Shown in pieces: positions 21,425 to 41,620 of a stretch of DNA of 64,000 nucleotides. This DNA is from Desulfomicrobium escambiense DSM 10707 (GTDB lineage: Bacteria > Desulfobacterota > Desulfovibrionia > Desulfovibrionales > Desulfomicrobiaceae). The DNA lies in contig NZ_AUAR01000003.1 of assembly GCF_000428825.1 (NCBI RefSeq), forward strand, positions 186,001 to 250,000, read 5' to 3'. The notes below the pieces were generated by a model that was not told where the DNA came from, did not search any database, and worked only from the letters and a program-made list of their open reading frames with translations. The position numbers and the translations under genes are program-made. How positions within the stretch are numbered: position 1 is the first letter of the stretch; the number at the start of each line of letters is the position of its first letter.

Positions 21425-22864
21425 TTAGAAGAAAAGGACGGTCATGAGCACGAAGCTCGGGATCAGGATGCCCACGGACCAGGCCATGTAGCCGAAGAAG
21501 CTGGGCATCTTGATCCCGGACGATTCCGCGATGGACCGGACCATGAAGTTCGGGGCGTTGCCGATGTACGTGTTGGCGCCCATGAACACCGCGCCCGCCG
21601 AGATGGCCATGAGGGTGTGCACATGCTCCATGAGGAAGGACGCGTCGCCGCCGGCGGTGTTGAAGAAGACCAGATAGGTCGGGGCGTTGTCCAGGAAGCT
21701 CGAAAGCGCTCCGGTCAGCCAGAAGTACATGGCGTTGTTGGCCACGCCGTCGGTGGAGACCAGGGCGATGATGCCCGACAGGGCGCCGTCCATGCCCGCG
21801 CGCAGGATGGCGATGGCCGGGATCATGGTCAGGAAGATGCCGGCGAAGAGCTTGGCCACCTCGATGATGGGCTCCCAGTTGAACTCGTTGCGGCGGCGGA
21901 TGTCCAGGGCCGTGGTCTTGAGGCTGACGCCGGCGAGGATCAGGAGCAGGACGTCGCGGGCGACGTTCTGCAGCTCCACGTGCACGTGGTAGAGGGTGAA
22001 CCCGCCTTCGGGCTTCCACATGCCGCTCATGAGCACGCCGGCGACCACGCCGCCCAGCAGGAGCAGGTTCAGGGAGCCTTCGAGGCGCAACTTGCCGTCC
22101 TGGCCCGCGTCAGGAGACTGGGGACGGCCTTCCTTGCCGAACAGCACCGTGTCGATGATGAAGTACAGGGTCAGCAGGATGGCCGACATGGCCGCAAAGG
22201 GCATGAACAGGTGGACCGTGGTCCAGAAGAAGGACACGCCCTTCAGAAAGCCCAGAAACAGCGGCGGGTCGCCCAGGGGCGTCAGGCTGCCGCCGATGTT
22301 GGCCACCAGGAAGATGAAGAAGACGATGGTGTGGACCTTGTACTTGCGGTGCGAGATGGCCCGCATGAGGGGACGGATGAGCAGCATGGCCGCGCCGGTG
22401 GTTCCCATCCAGCTCGCCAGCAGGGTGCCGATGAGCAGGATGACCGTGTTGACCTGCGGCGTGCCCACCAGGGAGCCGCGCAGGCACACGCCGCCGGCGA
22501 TGGTGAAAAGGGAGAAAAGCAGTATCAGGAACGACACGTATTCCAGGGCGATGGTGTGGACCACGGAATACGTCGCCAGCTCGAAGCCGTGAAACAGGGC
22601 GAAAGGCACCAGAAATGCGACGCTCCAGAAAGCGGCCACCTTGCCGTAGTGGTGGTGCCAGAAGTGCGGGACGGCCAACGGCATGACTGCGATGGACAGG
22701 AGCATGCAGGCGAAGGGCACGACCCACAGGACGCCCAGGTGCTTGCCGATCTCCTCGGCCTCATGATGCAGGTCGCCGCCGGAAGCCCACACGTCCGGCA
22801 ACACTCCAAGAACTGCCAGGGCGACGACCGCCAGGCAAAAAAACCAGACAGAACTCTTGCGCAT
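21425..22864 (-). CDS. NhaD-type sodium:proton antiporter (cassette copy 1)
   Basis: A 479-residue membrane protein of the ion transporter superfamily, NhaD/CitMHS branch. Family landmarks are NIGGSLTPLGDPPLFLGFLK in the first half and the SSFLDNAPTYLVFFNTAGGD loop in the second. About a dozen hydrophobic helices follow a short N-terminal leader that may be a signal-like helix. ATG 22864 has GGAG about nine bases upstream; an extended frame exists but lacks support. It likely exchanges sodium for protons at the inner membrane. The next gene downstream is a Usp. Confidence 0.88.
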   Translation of the reverse strand: MRKSSVWFFCLAVVALAVLGVLPDVWASGGDLHHEAEEIGKHLGVLWVVPFACMLLSIAVMPLAVPHFWHHHYGKVAAFWSVAFLVPFALFHGFELATYSVVHTIALEYVSFLILLFSLFTIAGGVCLRGSLVGTPQVNTVILLIGTLLASWMGTTGAAMLLIRPLMRAISHRKYKVHTIVFFIFLVANIGGSLTPLGDPPLFLGFLKGVSFFWTTVHLFMPFAAMSAILLTLYFIIDTVLFGKEGRPQSPDAGQDGKLRLEGSLNLLLLGGVVAGVLMSGMWKPEGGFTLYHVHVELQNVARDVLLLILAGVSLKTTALDIRRRNEFNWEPIIEVAKLFAGIFLTMIPAIAILRAGMDGALSGIIALVSTDGVANNAMYFWLTGALSSFLDNAPTYLVFFNTAGGDASFLMEHVHTLMAISAGAVFMGANTYIGNAPNFMVRSIAESSGIKMPSFFGYMAWSVGILIPSFVLMTVLFF

Positions 22865-23336
22865 CCCTTGTTCTCCTTTTGGGCCGCCGCCGAAAACGGC
22901 GTCCCGTTCGCGTGAACGTTCAGGGCATCGTGACCAATGCCCAGCCTCTCCTCTCCCTTCTCCAAAAAAACAGGCCCCTGGTCGCCCAATCATGGACTCC
23001 AACGGCCGAAGGGCGAAACCCGGCAACGCATCCTGCGCCTCCCATCCGGCTTTCGTCCGTGCGCAAGGCCTCCTGCGTCAACGCGCGTTCACGGACCTTC
23101 TTCACGCACGGCGGGTGCATATGCCATATCGGCCGCTGGAGCAATCCCCCCCGCCGGTCGGCGGTCTGTCTGGCTCGCCGGGCGCGGACGGCGAAAATCG
23201 TCCCGGGACGGAGGGAATTGTTTGCGCCCAATCTTCTCAAAGCCATGTGGCCGGAATCATTCCGAGCTTGCCGGTCAGAAAAAAGGCCGTCCCCCTTGCG
23301 GGAGACGGCCTCGGATCGGCGCGACGCGAAAGGCGC
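22865..23336. other. 472-base gap upstream of antiporter copy 1
   Basis: No credible gene. It holds the terminator of the second usp copy (23279-23311) and presumably the promoter and a long leader of antiporter copy 1. The ~20 bases next to the start codon match the leader of antiporter copy 2. I saw no riboswitch I could name. Confidence 0.6.
23279..23311 (-). terminator. Terminator of the antiporter-usp copy 2 operon
   Basis: On the minus strand AGGCCGTC (23304-23311) pairs with GACGGCCT (23284-23291), followed by a run of six T. It shows that the two antiporter-usp cassettes are separate transcription units. Confidence 0.9.
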
Positions 23337-23801
23337 CTACAGTCCGCAGGCGTCCTGCAGGTACTTGAGGCGCAGGTTGCGCGTGACCAGCACCGGGCAG
23401 GTCGCGCCCTCCAGCACGCGCGTGACCACGCTGCCCATGATCACGTTCTCCAGGACCGAAAGGCCGCGAGAGCCGATGACGATGAGGTCGCAGTCCAGTT
23501 CTTCCTGGACGTTCAGGATGACATAGTCCGGACGGCCGCTGCGGGAGATGAGTTCGACGTCCATGCCGCAGGGTTCGAGCAGCTTTTTGTACTCCTCCAA
23601 AAGCGCCATGGACTTCTCGTGGGCATTCTGACGAAGCCGTTCGGCCATCTCGCCGCCGATGGTCATATTGACCGGCTCCCAGATGTTCAGCAGGTATATC
23701 TTGGGGTTGCGGGAATTGACCAGATGCGCGCCGTACTTGGCCGCGTTCCTCGACGAATCCGACCCGTCCACCGGGATGAGCACTTTTTCGACTTTGATCA
23801 T
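23337..23801 (-). CDS. Universal stress protein, UspA family (cassette copy 2)
   Basis: A 154-residue Usp with the same start (MIKVEKVLIPVDGSDSS) and the same intact ATP-binding motif as the copy at 20930. Most differences cluster in the central helix region (residues 25-75). It follows antiporter copy 2 by 43 bases. Confidence 0.93.
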   Translation of the reverse strand: MIKVEKVLIPVDGSDSSRNAAKYGAHLVNSRNPKIYLLNIWEPVNMTIGGEMAERLRQNAHEKSMALLEEYKKLLEPCGMDVELISRSGRPDYVILNVQEELDCDLIVIGSRGLSVLENVIMGSVVTRVLEGATCPVLVTRNLRLKYLQDACGL

Positions 23802-23844
23802 GATTCTCTCTCCATGGCGATCATCACGCCTTTGATTCTTCTGA

Positions 23845-25290
23845 TTAATGGAAGAACAGGAAGTTCATCAAAAGGAAACAGGGGACGAGGATGCCCATGG
23901 ACCAGGCCATATAGCCGAAGAAACTGGGCATCTTGATGCCGCCGGACTCGGCGATGGACCGGACCATGAAGTTGGGGGCATTGCCGATGTACGTGTTGGC
24001 GCCCATGAACACCGCGCCCGCCGAGATGGCCAGCAGGGTGCCCACCTCCGACATGAGGCGCTGCGGGTCGCCGCCCGCCGTGTTGAAGAAGACCAGGTAG
24101 GTCGGGGCGTTGTCCAGGAAGCTCGACAGCACGCCCGTCAGCCAGAAGAACATGGTGTGGTTGTCCAGGCCGTCGGCCGTCTTGACCATGGAAATGAGGC
24201 CCTGCAGGGCGCCGTCCATGCCCGAGCGGAGGATGGAGATGGCCGGGATCATGGAGATGAAAATACCGGCGAAGAGCTTGGCCACCTCGCGGATGGGCTC
24301 CCAGTCAAACTCGTTGCGGCGCCGGATTTCGGGGGCCGTGACCTTGAGGCTCACGCCGGCCAGGACCAGGAGCAGGACGTCGCGCACGATGTTCTGCAGC
24401 TCGATGTGCACATGGTAGACCGTCACGCCGCCTTCGGGCTTCCATATGCCGCTCATGAGCACGCCGGCGACCACGCCGCCCAGTAGCAACAGGTTGAAGG
24501 TGCCTTCGAGGCGCAATTTGCCATCCTGGCCCGCGTCTGGGGATTCGGGGCGGCCCTCCTTGTTGAAGAGGAAGGTGTCGATGGCAAAGTACAGCACCAG
24601 CAGGATGGCCGACAGGACCGCGAAGGGCACGAACATGTGGACCGTGGTCCAGAAGAAGGACACGCCCTTCAGAAAGCCCAGGAACAGCGGCGGGTCGCCG
24701 AGCGGCGTGAGGCTGCCGCCGATGTTGGCCACCAGGAAGATGAAAAAGACGATGGTGTGGACCTTGTACCTGCGGTGCGCGATGGCCCGCATGAGGGGCC
24801 GGATGAGCAGCATGGCCGCGCCGGTGGTTCCCATCCAGCTCGCCAGCAGCGTGCCGATCAGGAGGATGACCGTGTTGACCTGCGGCTTGCCCACCAGGGA
24901 GCCGCGCAGGCACACGCCGCCGGCGATGGTGAAGAGGGAGAAGAGCAGGACGATGAAGGAGATGTATTCGAGAAACAGGGTGTGGGCCACGGAGTACGCG
25001 GCCAGTTCGAACCCGTGCACGATGGCGAAGGGCACCAGGAAGGCCAGCCCCCAGAAGGCGGACACCTTGCCGTAGTTGTGGTGCCAGAAATGCGGCACGG
25101 CCAGGGGCATGACGGCGATGGACAGGAGCATGCAGGCGAAGGGCACGACCCACACGACGCTCAGCTCCTTGCCGATCTCCTCGGCGGCGTGGTGCAGGTC
25201 GCCGCCCGCGGCCAAGGCTTCGGGCAGAATGCCGAGCGTTCCCAGGCCGAGAACGGCCAGGAAGAAAAACCACACTGAACTTTGTCGCAT
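23845..25290 (-). CDS. NhaD-type sodium:proton antiporter (cassette copy 2)
   Basis: A 481-residue paralogue of the antiporter at 21425, with the same GGSLTPLGDPPLFLGFLK and FLDNAPTYLVFF landmarks and nearly collinear sequence. It begins MRQSSVWFFFLAVLG, parallel to MRKSSVWFFCLAVVA in the other copy. The ribosome-site region is also conserved between the copies. Divergence is greater at the N terminus and in the loop around residues 360-400, which may tune ion or pH response. Confidence 0.88.
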   Translation of the reverse strand: MRQSSVWFFFLAVLGLGTLGILPEALAAGGDLHHAAEEIGKELSVVWVVPFACMLLSIAVMPLAVPHFWHHNYGKVSAFWGLAFLVPFAIVHGFELAAYSVAHTLFLEYISFIVLLFSLFTIAGGVCLRGSLVGKPQVNTVILLIGTLLASWMGTTGAAMLLIRPLMRAIAHRRYKVHTIVFFIFLVANIGGSLTPLGDPPLFLGFLKGVSFFWTTVHMFVPFAVLSAILLVLYFAIDTFLFNKEGRPESPDAGQDGKLRLEGTFNLLLLGGVVAGVLMSGIWKPEGGVTVYHVHIELQNIVRDVLLLVLAGVSLKVTAPEIRRRNEFDWEPIREVAKLFAGIFISMIPAISILRSGMDGALQGLISMVKTADGLDNHTMFFWLTGVLSSFLDNAPTYLVFFNTAGGDPQRLMSEVGTLLAISAGAVFMGANTYIGNAPNFMVRSIAESGGIKMPSFFGYMAWSMGILVPCFLLMNFLFFH

Positions 25291-25354
25291 CCGATGTTCT
25301 CCTTTTCGGGCCGCCGTAGCGACCCGGGTCGTTTGCGGCGGAGAGCGGAGAGCA

Positions 25355-26638
25355 TCACCTGCGATGCCCTGCCACCACCCTCACCAAGGAAGTGGTCAAT
25401 ACGGCCAGGTCCTGGTCGTCCATGATGAATGGGGGCATCACGTACACCAAACGGCCAAAGGGACGAACCCAGACGCCTTCTTCGACAAAAGCGGTCTGAA
25501 TTTCGGCCATGCGCACCGGCTCCTTGAGCTCCACCACCCCGATGGCGCCCAGGGTGCGCACGTCCACAGTGTAGGACAAATCGGCGCACGGGGCAAGGCC
25601 GTCCGCCAACAAACGCCCGATCCGCGCCACTTGCGCGGCCCAGTCGTTATTTTCCAGCAGGTTGAGGGACGCCCGCGCCACGGCGCAGGCCAGGGGATTG
25701 CCCATGAACGTGGGGCCGTGCATGAACACGCCGGGCGAGCCCTCGCACACGCCCTCGGCCACGCGCTCCGTGGCCAGGGCCGCGGCCAGGGTCATGTATC
25801 CGCCGGTCAGGGCCTTGCCCAGGCACATGATGTCGGGGCTCACCCCGGCGTGTTCGCAGGCGAAGAGCCTGCCCGTGCGCCCGAAGCCCGTGGCGATCTC
25901 GTCGGCGATGAGCAGCACGTCGAAGGCGTCGCACAGCTCGCGCACGCGCCGCAGGTACATGGGATGGTAGAAATGCATGCCGCCCGCGCCCTGAACCACG
26001 GGTTCGAGGATGACGGCCGCGATCTCCCGGTGGTGACGCTCCAGGGCCTCGCGCATGGGCCGAATGTCCTCCTCGTCCCACTCGCCGCCGAAACGGCAGC
26101 GCGGGCGGGGCACGAACAGGTGGTGCGGCAGGACCTTCGAGAATATCTCATGCATCCCGTTGACAGGATCACACACGCTCATGGCTGCGAAGGTGTCGCC
26201 GTGGTATCCGCCGCGGATGGTCAGTAGTCGGCATTTCTCGCTTCGGCCGCGGCAGATCCAGTACTGGAAGGCCATCTTGATGGCCACCTCCACGGCCACG
26301 GAGCCCGAATCCGCGAGAAAGACCCGGGTCAGGGGCTCCGGGGTCATCCCGACCAGCTTGCGGCACAACTCCACGGCCGGCTTGTGGGTCAGGCCGCCGA
26401 ACATGACGTGGGCCATGCGCGTGAGCTGGTCCGTGACGGCCGCGTTGAGCACGGGATGGTTGTAGCCGTGCACGGCCGCCCACCACGAGGACATGCCGTC
26501 GATGAGCTCCCGGCCGTCGGCCAGCTTCAGCCGCACGCCCGAGGCCGAGACGACCTGGCGCACGGGCAGGGGCGCTGTCGTGGAGGTGTAGGGGTGCCAG
26601 ATGTGCCGGCGGTCGAAGTCGAGTATGTCATTGTTCAT
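25355..26638 (-). CDS. bioA: Adenosylmethionine-8-amino-7-oxononanoate aminotransferase
   Basis: A 427-residue class III aminotransferase of biotin synthesis, converting 7-keto-8-aminopelargonate to 7,8-diaminopelargonate with SAM as donor. BioA features include the N-terminal [24 protein letters not shown], the PLP-phosphate site [13 protein letters not shown] and the lysine motif [11 protein letters not shown]. The length equals the family (~430). No other biotin gene is adjacent; it lies alone between the antiporter cassette and divergent queA. Confidence 0.95.
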
Positions 26639-39148: not shown

Positions 39149-39440
39149 GGTCTGCCTTGTGCTCCGCGATCAGGTTGATGCCGGCGTCGGTCACGCCCAG
39201 CACCAGAAGCCTATTCAAGAAGCGGACCACCACCAGCTGTTTGCGCGGACCAAGGGCCACGCGTTCCTCGACCCGCAGGGAGCCCGCCCCGCGGCCCTGC
39301 AGGCGTGAGGCCAGCCCGAAGCGCTTGAGGAGCGCAAAAGCCAGAAAAATGAGCCCGAGGATGAGCAGCAGCGCCGCGGCCATCTTCACGGCGGCCAGCC
39401 CCAGCCCGGCGCCCGCGCCTGTCAGGGTTGCGTTATCCAA
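39084..39440 (-). CDS. fliO: Flagellar protein FliO
   Basis: A 118-residue protein with one membrane helix (about residues 18-42) and a cytoplasmic domain with EERVALGPRKQLVVVRF, as in FliO. It assists FliP ring assembly. It overlaps fliN by eight bases and fliP by 65. Confidence 0.9.
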   Translation of the reverse strand: MDNATLTGAGAGLGLAAVKMAAALLLILGLIFLAFALLKRFGLASRLQGRGAGSLRVEERVALGPRKQLVVVRFLNRLLVLGVTDAGINLIAEHKADHDPTPDFQTALERESGQDPSS

Positions 39441-39996
39441 GCTGCTTCACCCGCTCGATGGGACTGATGATGTCCGTAAGGCGCACGCCGAACTTCTCGT
39501 TGATGACCACGGCCTCGCCGCGCGCCACGAGCTTGCCGTTGACCAGGATCTCCAGGGGTTCGCCGGCCAGCTTGTTCAGTTCGATGACCGATCCCTGCCC
39601 GAGCTGCAGCAGTTCGTTGATGAGGAGCTTGGTACTGCCGAGCTGGGCCGAAACCTCCAGCGGGATGTCGAGGATGAAGTCCAGATCCTTGCGCAGGTTG
39701 TCGGGTTTGGGCGCTTTGGCCTCGGCCGTCAAATCTTTGTATTCAAAATCCCGACTCTGGGCGGAAAGCTGCTTCTGCTTCTTCTCGCGCTGGATCTTGC
39801 CCTCCTCCTCGTCGGCCAAAGCCTTGGCCCACTCCTCGGCCAGGGCTTGGTCCGAGCCGCCCGGCTCCTGCTCCTTGAGGGCCGCGCTCCAGGCGTCGGC
39901 AAGATCCTGCTCGCCTCCGCCGGCGGACTCCGCGGTGCTCTGCTCTTCAAGGGCTGCGGCCCACTCCGCCGCCAGTTTGTCCTGATCTTCGACCAT
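39433..39996 (-). CDS. fliN: Flagellar motor switch protein FliN with repeated N-terminal motif
   Basis: A 187-residue protein. The C-terminal FliN/SpoA domain (about 105-187) has LDIPLEVSAQLG, LGQGSVIELNKLAGEP and GVRLTDI. The acidic N-terminal extension (1-75) holds three copies of an L-A-x-x-W-x-x-A-L motif with Trp at residues 12, 36 and 56. FliN lines the base of the C-ring and sets rotation direction and export. The repeats are discussed in the findings. Confidence 0.95.
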   Translation of the reverse strand: MVEDQDKLAAEWAAALEEQSTAESAGGGEQDLADAWSAALKEQEPGGSDQALAEEWAKALADEEEGKIQREKKQKQLSAQSRDFEYKDLTAEAKAPKPDNLRKDLDFILDIPLEVSAQLGSTKLLINELLQLGQGSVIELNKLAGEPLEILVNGKLVARGEAVVINEKFGVRLTDIISPIERVKQLG

Positions 39997-40005
39997 ACCG
40001 TACCC

Positions 40006-41052
40006 CTAGTAATTGAGTTCCTGTTCCTTGATGACCTTGAAGGCCTTGTTTCCCTTGACAAACCCCGGATGGCCCAAAAATTTGAGCACGCCCTGGATGC
40101 GGGCCGTGAGAAGATCGTCCTCGTCCTGATCCAGGAGCAGGATGTCCCCGACCTTGAGATCGAGAAGCTGGCGGCCGGTCATCTGCGTCGTGCCGAAAGT
40201 CACGCCCACGTCCACGGGTGTCTCCATGAGCCGGTCCCGGAAGCGGGAAATCCAGGCGTGGTCGATCTCCAGGCGCTCTGTCTGGAAGGCGGCATAGAGC
40301 TTGGACCGGAAGCGGGAAATCCAGGCGTGGTCGATCTCCAGGCGCTCTGTCTGGAAGGCGGCATAGAGCTTGGAGCGGATGGGTTCGATGGTCGCGTAGG
40401 GCAGGGCCAGGACCATGGAGCCCAGGGCGTTCTCCAGCTCCACCTCGAAGGAGATGACCACGACCACGTCGCTGGGCGGGACGATGGTCGCGAACTGCGG
40501 ATTGATCTCCGAGCGCAGGAGTTCGATGCTGACCTCATGCACCGGCCGCCAGGCGTCCTCCAGGTTGGCCAGGATGATCTTGACCACCTTGACGATGATG
40601 GACTGCTCGATGGGCGTGAAGTCGCGCCCCTCGATCTTGGGCTGGCTGCCCGCCCCGCCGAAGAAGTTCTCGACCAGGGAGAAGACCAGGCGCGTGTCGA
40701 CCACCAGCAGGGCGTTGCCGCGCAGGGGGTCGATCTTGAAGATGTTGATGCTCGTTGGCACGGGCAGGGAACGCATGAAGTCCCCGAACTTGGACATGTC
40801 GATGGAGATGGGGTTCACGTCCACCCGCTTGCGCATGGTGTTGGCCAGGGCGCTGGTGCACAGGCGCGAGAAGCGGTCGTTGATGATCTCGAGCACCGGC
40901 ATGCGGCCGCGGATGATGCGGTCCTGGTTGGCCAGGTCGAAGGACACGACGCCGCTCTGATCCTCGACGACCTCCTCCTCGGTCTCGATCTCCCCGCCCG
41001 AGATGCCCCGCAACAGGGCATCGACCTCGTCCTGGTTCAGGATCTTGCTCAT
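40006..41052 (-). CDS. fliM: Flagellar motor switch protein FliM with internal 23-residue duplication
   Basis: A 348-residue switch protein. The N-terminal CheY-binding motif KILNQDEVDALLRGI is intact. The middle CheC-like domain and the C-terminal SpoA domain (DVGVTFGTTQMTGRQLLDLK) follow. Residues about 227-249 and 250-272 are identical (RSKLYAAFQTERLEIDHAWI and on), from a perfect 69-bp tandem repeat. Without it the protein would be 325 residues, the usual length. The duplication falls between the middle and C-terminal domains. Confidence 0.95.
   Translation of the reverse strand: MSKILNQDEVDALLRGISGGEIETEEEVVEDQSGVVSFDLANQDRIIRGRMPVLEIINDRFSRLCTSALANTMRKRVDVNPISIDMSKFGDFMRSLPVPTSINIFKIDPLRGNALLVVDTRLVFSLVENFFGGAGSQPKIEGRDFTPIEQSIIVKVVKIILANLEDAWRPVHEVSIELLRSEINPQFATIVPPSDVVVVISFEVELENALGSMVLALPYATIEPIRSKLYAAFQTERLEIDHAWISRFRSKLYAAFQTERLEIDHAWISRFRDRLMETPVDVGVTFGTTQMTGRQLLDLKVGDILLLDQDEDDLLTARIQGVLKFLGHPGFVKGNKAFKVIKEQELNY
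40237..40374 (-). repeat. Perfect 69-bp tandem repeat inside fliM
   Basis: 40237-40305 and 40306-40374 are identical. The unit length is a multiple of three, so the frame is kept. Confidence 0.95.
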
Positions 41053-41068: not shown

Positions 41069-41620
41069 CTACTGGACCACGAATTCCGTGAAATAGACGT
41101 TGCGCACCTTGCCCTTGCCCAGAATCTGGTTCAGGCGCTCAACGATCTGGTTCTTGAGTTCGATCTTGCGATCCATGCTGCTGATCTCCTCGAAGGTCTT
41201 GCTCGACAGCAGGAGCAACAGTGTGTCCTTGACCTTGGGCATGGCCGCGGTCAGTGCGGCCGCGGCCGCGGCATCGGCCACTTCCACGTCCATGGTGGTC
41301 TTCAGGTAGCGCCGCCCCATGGGATCGGACAGGTTGACCACGAAGGCGTCGAGAGTGACCAGCTGGCCGCCTGTTGCGGGCGCCGCGGCTTCCTTCTTCT
41401 CCCCTTCGGCCTTGCCTGCCGCGGCCGTCTCACCTTCGGCCGACGCTTCGTGCCCGGCCGCCGCGTCTCCCGCCAGCTTGGGCTGCAGATAGAACTTCCA
41501 GGCCGCAAACCCGCCGCCGCCCAGCACGCCCAGCACCAGAACCAGGATGATGATCAGCTTGAGCTTTCCGCCCTTTTTCTTGGCTTCCTTTTCCGGGGCC
41601 TGCGCTTTTTTGTCGGCCAT
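41069..41620 (-). CDS. fliL: Flagellar basal body-associated protein FliL
   Basis: A 183-residue single-pass protein. A lysine-rich cytoplasmic start, a membrane helix (about residues 20-42), an Ala/Glu-rich linker and the periplasmic FliL domain ending NVYFTEFVVQ are present. FliL surrounds the stator and supports torque. It lies between the motB genes and fliM. Confidence 0.93.
   Translation of the reverse strand: MADKKAQAPEKEAKKKGGKLKLIIILVLVLGVLGGGGFAAWKFYLQPKLAGDAAAGHEASAEGETAAAGKAEGEKKEAAAPATGGQLVTLDAFVVNLSDPMGRRYLKTTMDVEVADAAAAAALTAAMPKVKDTLLLLLSSKTFEEISSMDRKIELKNQIVERLNQILGKGKVRNVYFTEFVVQ

Follow-up and report, generated by a model that had tools for sequence, protein, structure and literature searches.

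The duplication lies in fliM, which is flanked by fliL and fliN on the minus strand of the window (the whole 64,000-nucleotide stretch of DNA analyzed), so that the flagellar context fliL-fliM-fliN is present around the duplicated gene. The product was assigned to FliM from its open reading frame, from Pfam matches to the middle domain (FliM, PF02154; residues 38–229, E 6.8e-69) and the C-terminal domain (FliMN_C, PF01052, SpoA; residues 274–342, E 2.6e-19), and from structural comparison, in which solved FliM chains in the PDB were the nearest structures to the 348-amino-acid protein. The features of the locus are as follows:

39433–39996, minus strand: fliN, the downstream neighbor of fliM, intact

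40006–41052, minus strand: fliM, flagellar motor switch protein, 348 codons plus stop

40237–40305, minus strand: second 69-bp unit in gene order, codons 250–272, same sequence as the first

40306–40374, minus strand: first 69-bp unit in gene order, codons 227–249, SKLYAAFQTERLEIDHAWISRFR

40306–40310, minus strand: TCCGG at the unit-unit junction, the presumed slippage repeat

40375–40379, minus strand: TCCGC, the flank upstream of the units; in sister genomes this is TCCGG, identical to the 5 bases that end the unit

41069–41620, minus strand: fliL, the upstream neighbor of fliM, intact

The segments 40237–40305 and 40306–40374 are adjacent and match at 69 of 69 bases, and Tandem Repeats Finder returned them as the top array in the window (period 69, 2.1 copies, score 279). 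The two units start at fliM gene nucleotides 679 and 748, both in codon phase 0, and the reading frame stays open through 348 codons; without the duplication the protein would have 325 residues, so 23 have been added. These results bear out a preliminary description of the locus, which had reported two identical, adjacent, in-frame units that lengthen FliM from 325 to 348 residues. A perfect tandem duplication of this size is far beyond chance in this genome because just one other whose unit exceeds 22 bp was found in the 2.05 Mb scanned in ten contigs (54% of the 3.78-Mb assembly).

A second copy of the 69-bp unit was not found in any relative examined, each species being represented by one genome. 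In the two sister genomes, both Desulfomicrobium species (loci L087 and L088), FliM is the same gene in the same position with the same domains, and its DNA is approximately 97% identical to that of the window upstream of the duplication and 94–95% identical downstream; however, the sister proteins have 325 amino acids and one 69-bp unit, with TCCGG kept on both sides. FliM has 325 amino acids or close to it in the relatives. Among the 80 best loci in the contig search (genome_contigs), no match spanned more than 978 nt. Whole-genome searches returned single-copy genomes either as one match of approximately 975 nt or as two matches (query residues 1–249 and 249–348) that overlap on the DNA, and among the genomes searched, a fliM span of 1044 nt occurred only in the window's own genome. 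All 29 relatives above threshold in a further search were likewise single copy, and in an alignment of 44 proteins, all the other sequences displayed have a gap of 23 residues.

Comparison with the sisters also bears on age. Of its 69 positions, the unit differs at 4 from its single counterpart in L087 and at 6 from that in L088, and the two window copies agree with each other at all of them. Every base that sets the units apart from the sisters is present in both; therefore, the duplication is recent, as the preliminary description had proposed from the perfect identity of the copies. As read from these substitutions, the duplication would postdate the split from the sister lineages, or else the copies would have been homogenized later.

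The breakpoints suggest how the duplication could have arisen. In L087 and L088, the unit is preceded by ATCCGG and ends in TTCCGG, so an exact 5-bp direct repeat, TCCGG, with its copies 69 bp apart, brackets the single unit in both sisters. The junction in the window reads TTCCGG followed by TCCAAG, as expected if the two copies were joined at TCCGG. A short repeat at the breakpoints is a signature of slippage or illegitimate recombination, and one of these is the probable mechanism; against this, short repeats at breakpoints also arise by chance, and the upstream 5-mer in the window is now TCCGC, which needs one substitution. That change is synonymous and could have come before or after the duplication. 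A close precedent comes from Salmonella, where motile revertants carried in-frame 30-bp tandem duplications in fliE between 5-bp repeats, with motility restored (PMC8546590). In both cases, part of a flagellar gene has been duplicated in tandem and in frame at 5-bp direct repeats, but the fliE duplications were 30 bp long and compensated for a deletion, whereas the fliM duplication is 69 bp long and is not known to compensate for anything. fliE was the only close precedent in the literature retrieved, which described no tandem duplication of fliM.

Perfect identity had also left room, in the preliminary description, for an error of assembly. In such an error, overlapping contig or read ends would have been joined with a 69-bp overlap left in, which would give copies that are perfectly identical and that occur in a single genome, as seen here; the assembly is a draft of 38 contigs, and it contains a second perfect duplication. 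This second case, which lies outside the window (L232, G000 C1:175648–175972), is a 162-bp in-frame duplication in a PAS/HisKA/HATPase histidine kinase and doubles the segment that holds the H-box HEINNPNNSI; orthologs in four relatives of the genus (G002, G003, G006, and G007) have one copy of the unit. In the 2.05 Mb scanned, no long perfect tandem duplications occurred other than those in fliM and the kinase gene, and 400 kb of a complete relative, G015, used as a control, held none whose unit exceeded 18 bp. If overlaps had been left in systematically, the same length should recur and the frames should be random. Instead, the two lengths differ (69 and 162 bp) and point to no common overlap length, and each is divisible by three and lies in an open coding frame, for which the chance is about 1 in 9; therefore, a real event is favored, short of proof. 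A fixed-overlap assembler artifact was rejected on the grounds that the two long duplications, the only ones in the 2.05 Mb, differ in length. In addition, there are no runs of N and no further case in 2.05 Mb, the fliM duplication is approximately 28 kb from the contig end, and its breakpoint coincides with the 5-bp direct repeat seen in the sisters. The genome scan and the breakpoint repeat thus leave an assembly error as an unlikely source, while the recency that the preliminary description had offered alongside it stands. The fliM duplication is most likely a real event, recent and specific to this genome. Elsewhere in the same genome, and outside the window, G000 C1:248173–248245 holds a perfect 22-bp repeat in 3.3 copies.

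The position of the insert was examined in AlphaFold models, which are of modest quality (mean pLDDT 70 and 65). In the single-copy model, the middle domain (FliM_M) closes with a helix at residues 219–231 and is connected by a low-confidence linker to the helix at residues 242–254 with which the C-terminal domain (FliM_C) opens. The repeated stretch starts within the last FliM_M helix, crosses the flexible linker, and stops within the first FliM_C helix, and so comprises the end of the former, the linker, and half of the latter. The insert had been placed between the two domains; this location is right, but the insert also repeats parts of both flanking helices. The main elements of both domains are kept in the model of the duplicated protein, with residues 223–267 at pLDDT below 50 and one extra low-confidence helix at 242–255. 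FliM_M and FliM_C are likewise joined by a linker in C-ring structures (PDB: 8umd and others), but, unlike the window FliM, none of these contains the linker-plus-helix segment twice. In the C ring of Salmonella, contacts with the adjacent FliM_M and FliN are made by the helix that opens FliM_C and by its loop, both of which shift when CheY binds (PMC11528121). Because the Salmonella counterpart makes these contacts and moves with CheY, it is plausible, by analogy, that the insert could change C-ring assembly or switching.

What the insert does to the motor can be read in several ways. A real insert could break the C ring and leave the strain non-motile, a reading that overlaps with the main explanation and concerns effect only. 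The duplicated segment is conserved and helical in relatives and its Salmonella counterpart makes ring contacts (PMC11528121), but both domains remain folded in the predicted structure and the other genes of the cluster are intact, and we consider loss of function possible but somewhat unlikely. General decay of motility was rejected, as the flagellar genes near fliM align over their length with their G015 counterparts. It is unlikely that the duplication is real and functional in the sense of a working, perhaps re-biased, switch with a doubled linker and half-helix, which would make it a natural variant of FliM linker length. That such a change was selected, with the longer linker altering C-ring geometry or switching bias to advantage, is very unlikely: the contacts and CheY-dependent movement of the first FliM_C helix and loop (PMC11528121) and the second in-frame duplication in a histidine kinase are compatible with it, but there is no positive evidence for selection, two events are too few for a pattern, and no compensating change was seen in the neighboring genes in a search that was not detailed.

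The preliminary description had also raised a phase-variation slippage site, a contingency locus at which changes in copy number would switch motility on and off. A perfect 69-bp tandem repeat can gain or lose copies through slippage, and spontaneous loss of a copy is likely. Nevertheless, 69 is a multiple of three and the repeat lies inside the gene, so copy number never shifts the frame; there are two copies only; and all relatives examined, at one genome per species, are single copy. As an evolved mechanism, phase variation is not upheld by these observations and is extremely improbable. Hairpin-driven instability was also rejected, as the single strand of the unit has no hairpin-forming tendency beyond the usual (z 0.06). 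The second copy in fliM may still be lost through chance slippage.

The best explanation as a whole, and a probable one, is a recent in-frame duplication via the TCCGG repeats that is tolerated and reversible. A copying or repair event would have joined the two TCCGG repeats 69 bp apart in fliM, giving an in-frame tandem duplication that repeats 23 residues and is recent and specific to the lineage or strain. The duplication would persist, most likely because the frame is kept and both folded domains are left intact, which presumes that the cell tolerates it, and the second copy should be lost again at low frequency. The fliM duplication is thus most likely a recent, reversible, strain-level mutation of an ordinary kind. 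If it is real and functional, then it offers a natural test of how much linker is tolerated between the FliG-holding and FliN-holding parts of the switch; if it disables the motor, then it is a motility-loss mutation that is likely to be reversible; otherwise, it is an ordinary short-repeat duplication and mainly a caution for gene annotation.

At 21428–25380 on the minus strand, the window also contains two tandem paralogs of a putative citrate transporter (CitMHS_2), and the matching region of G015 has two copies as well.
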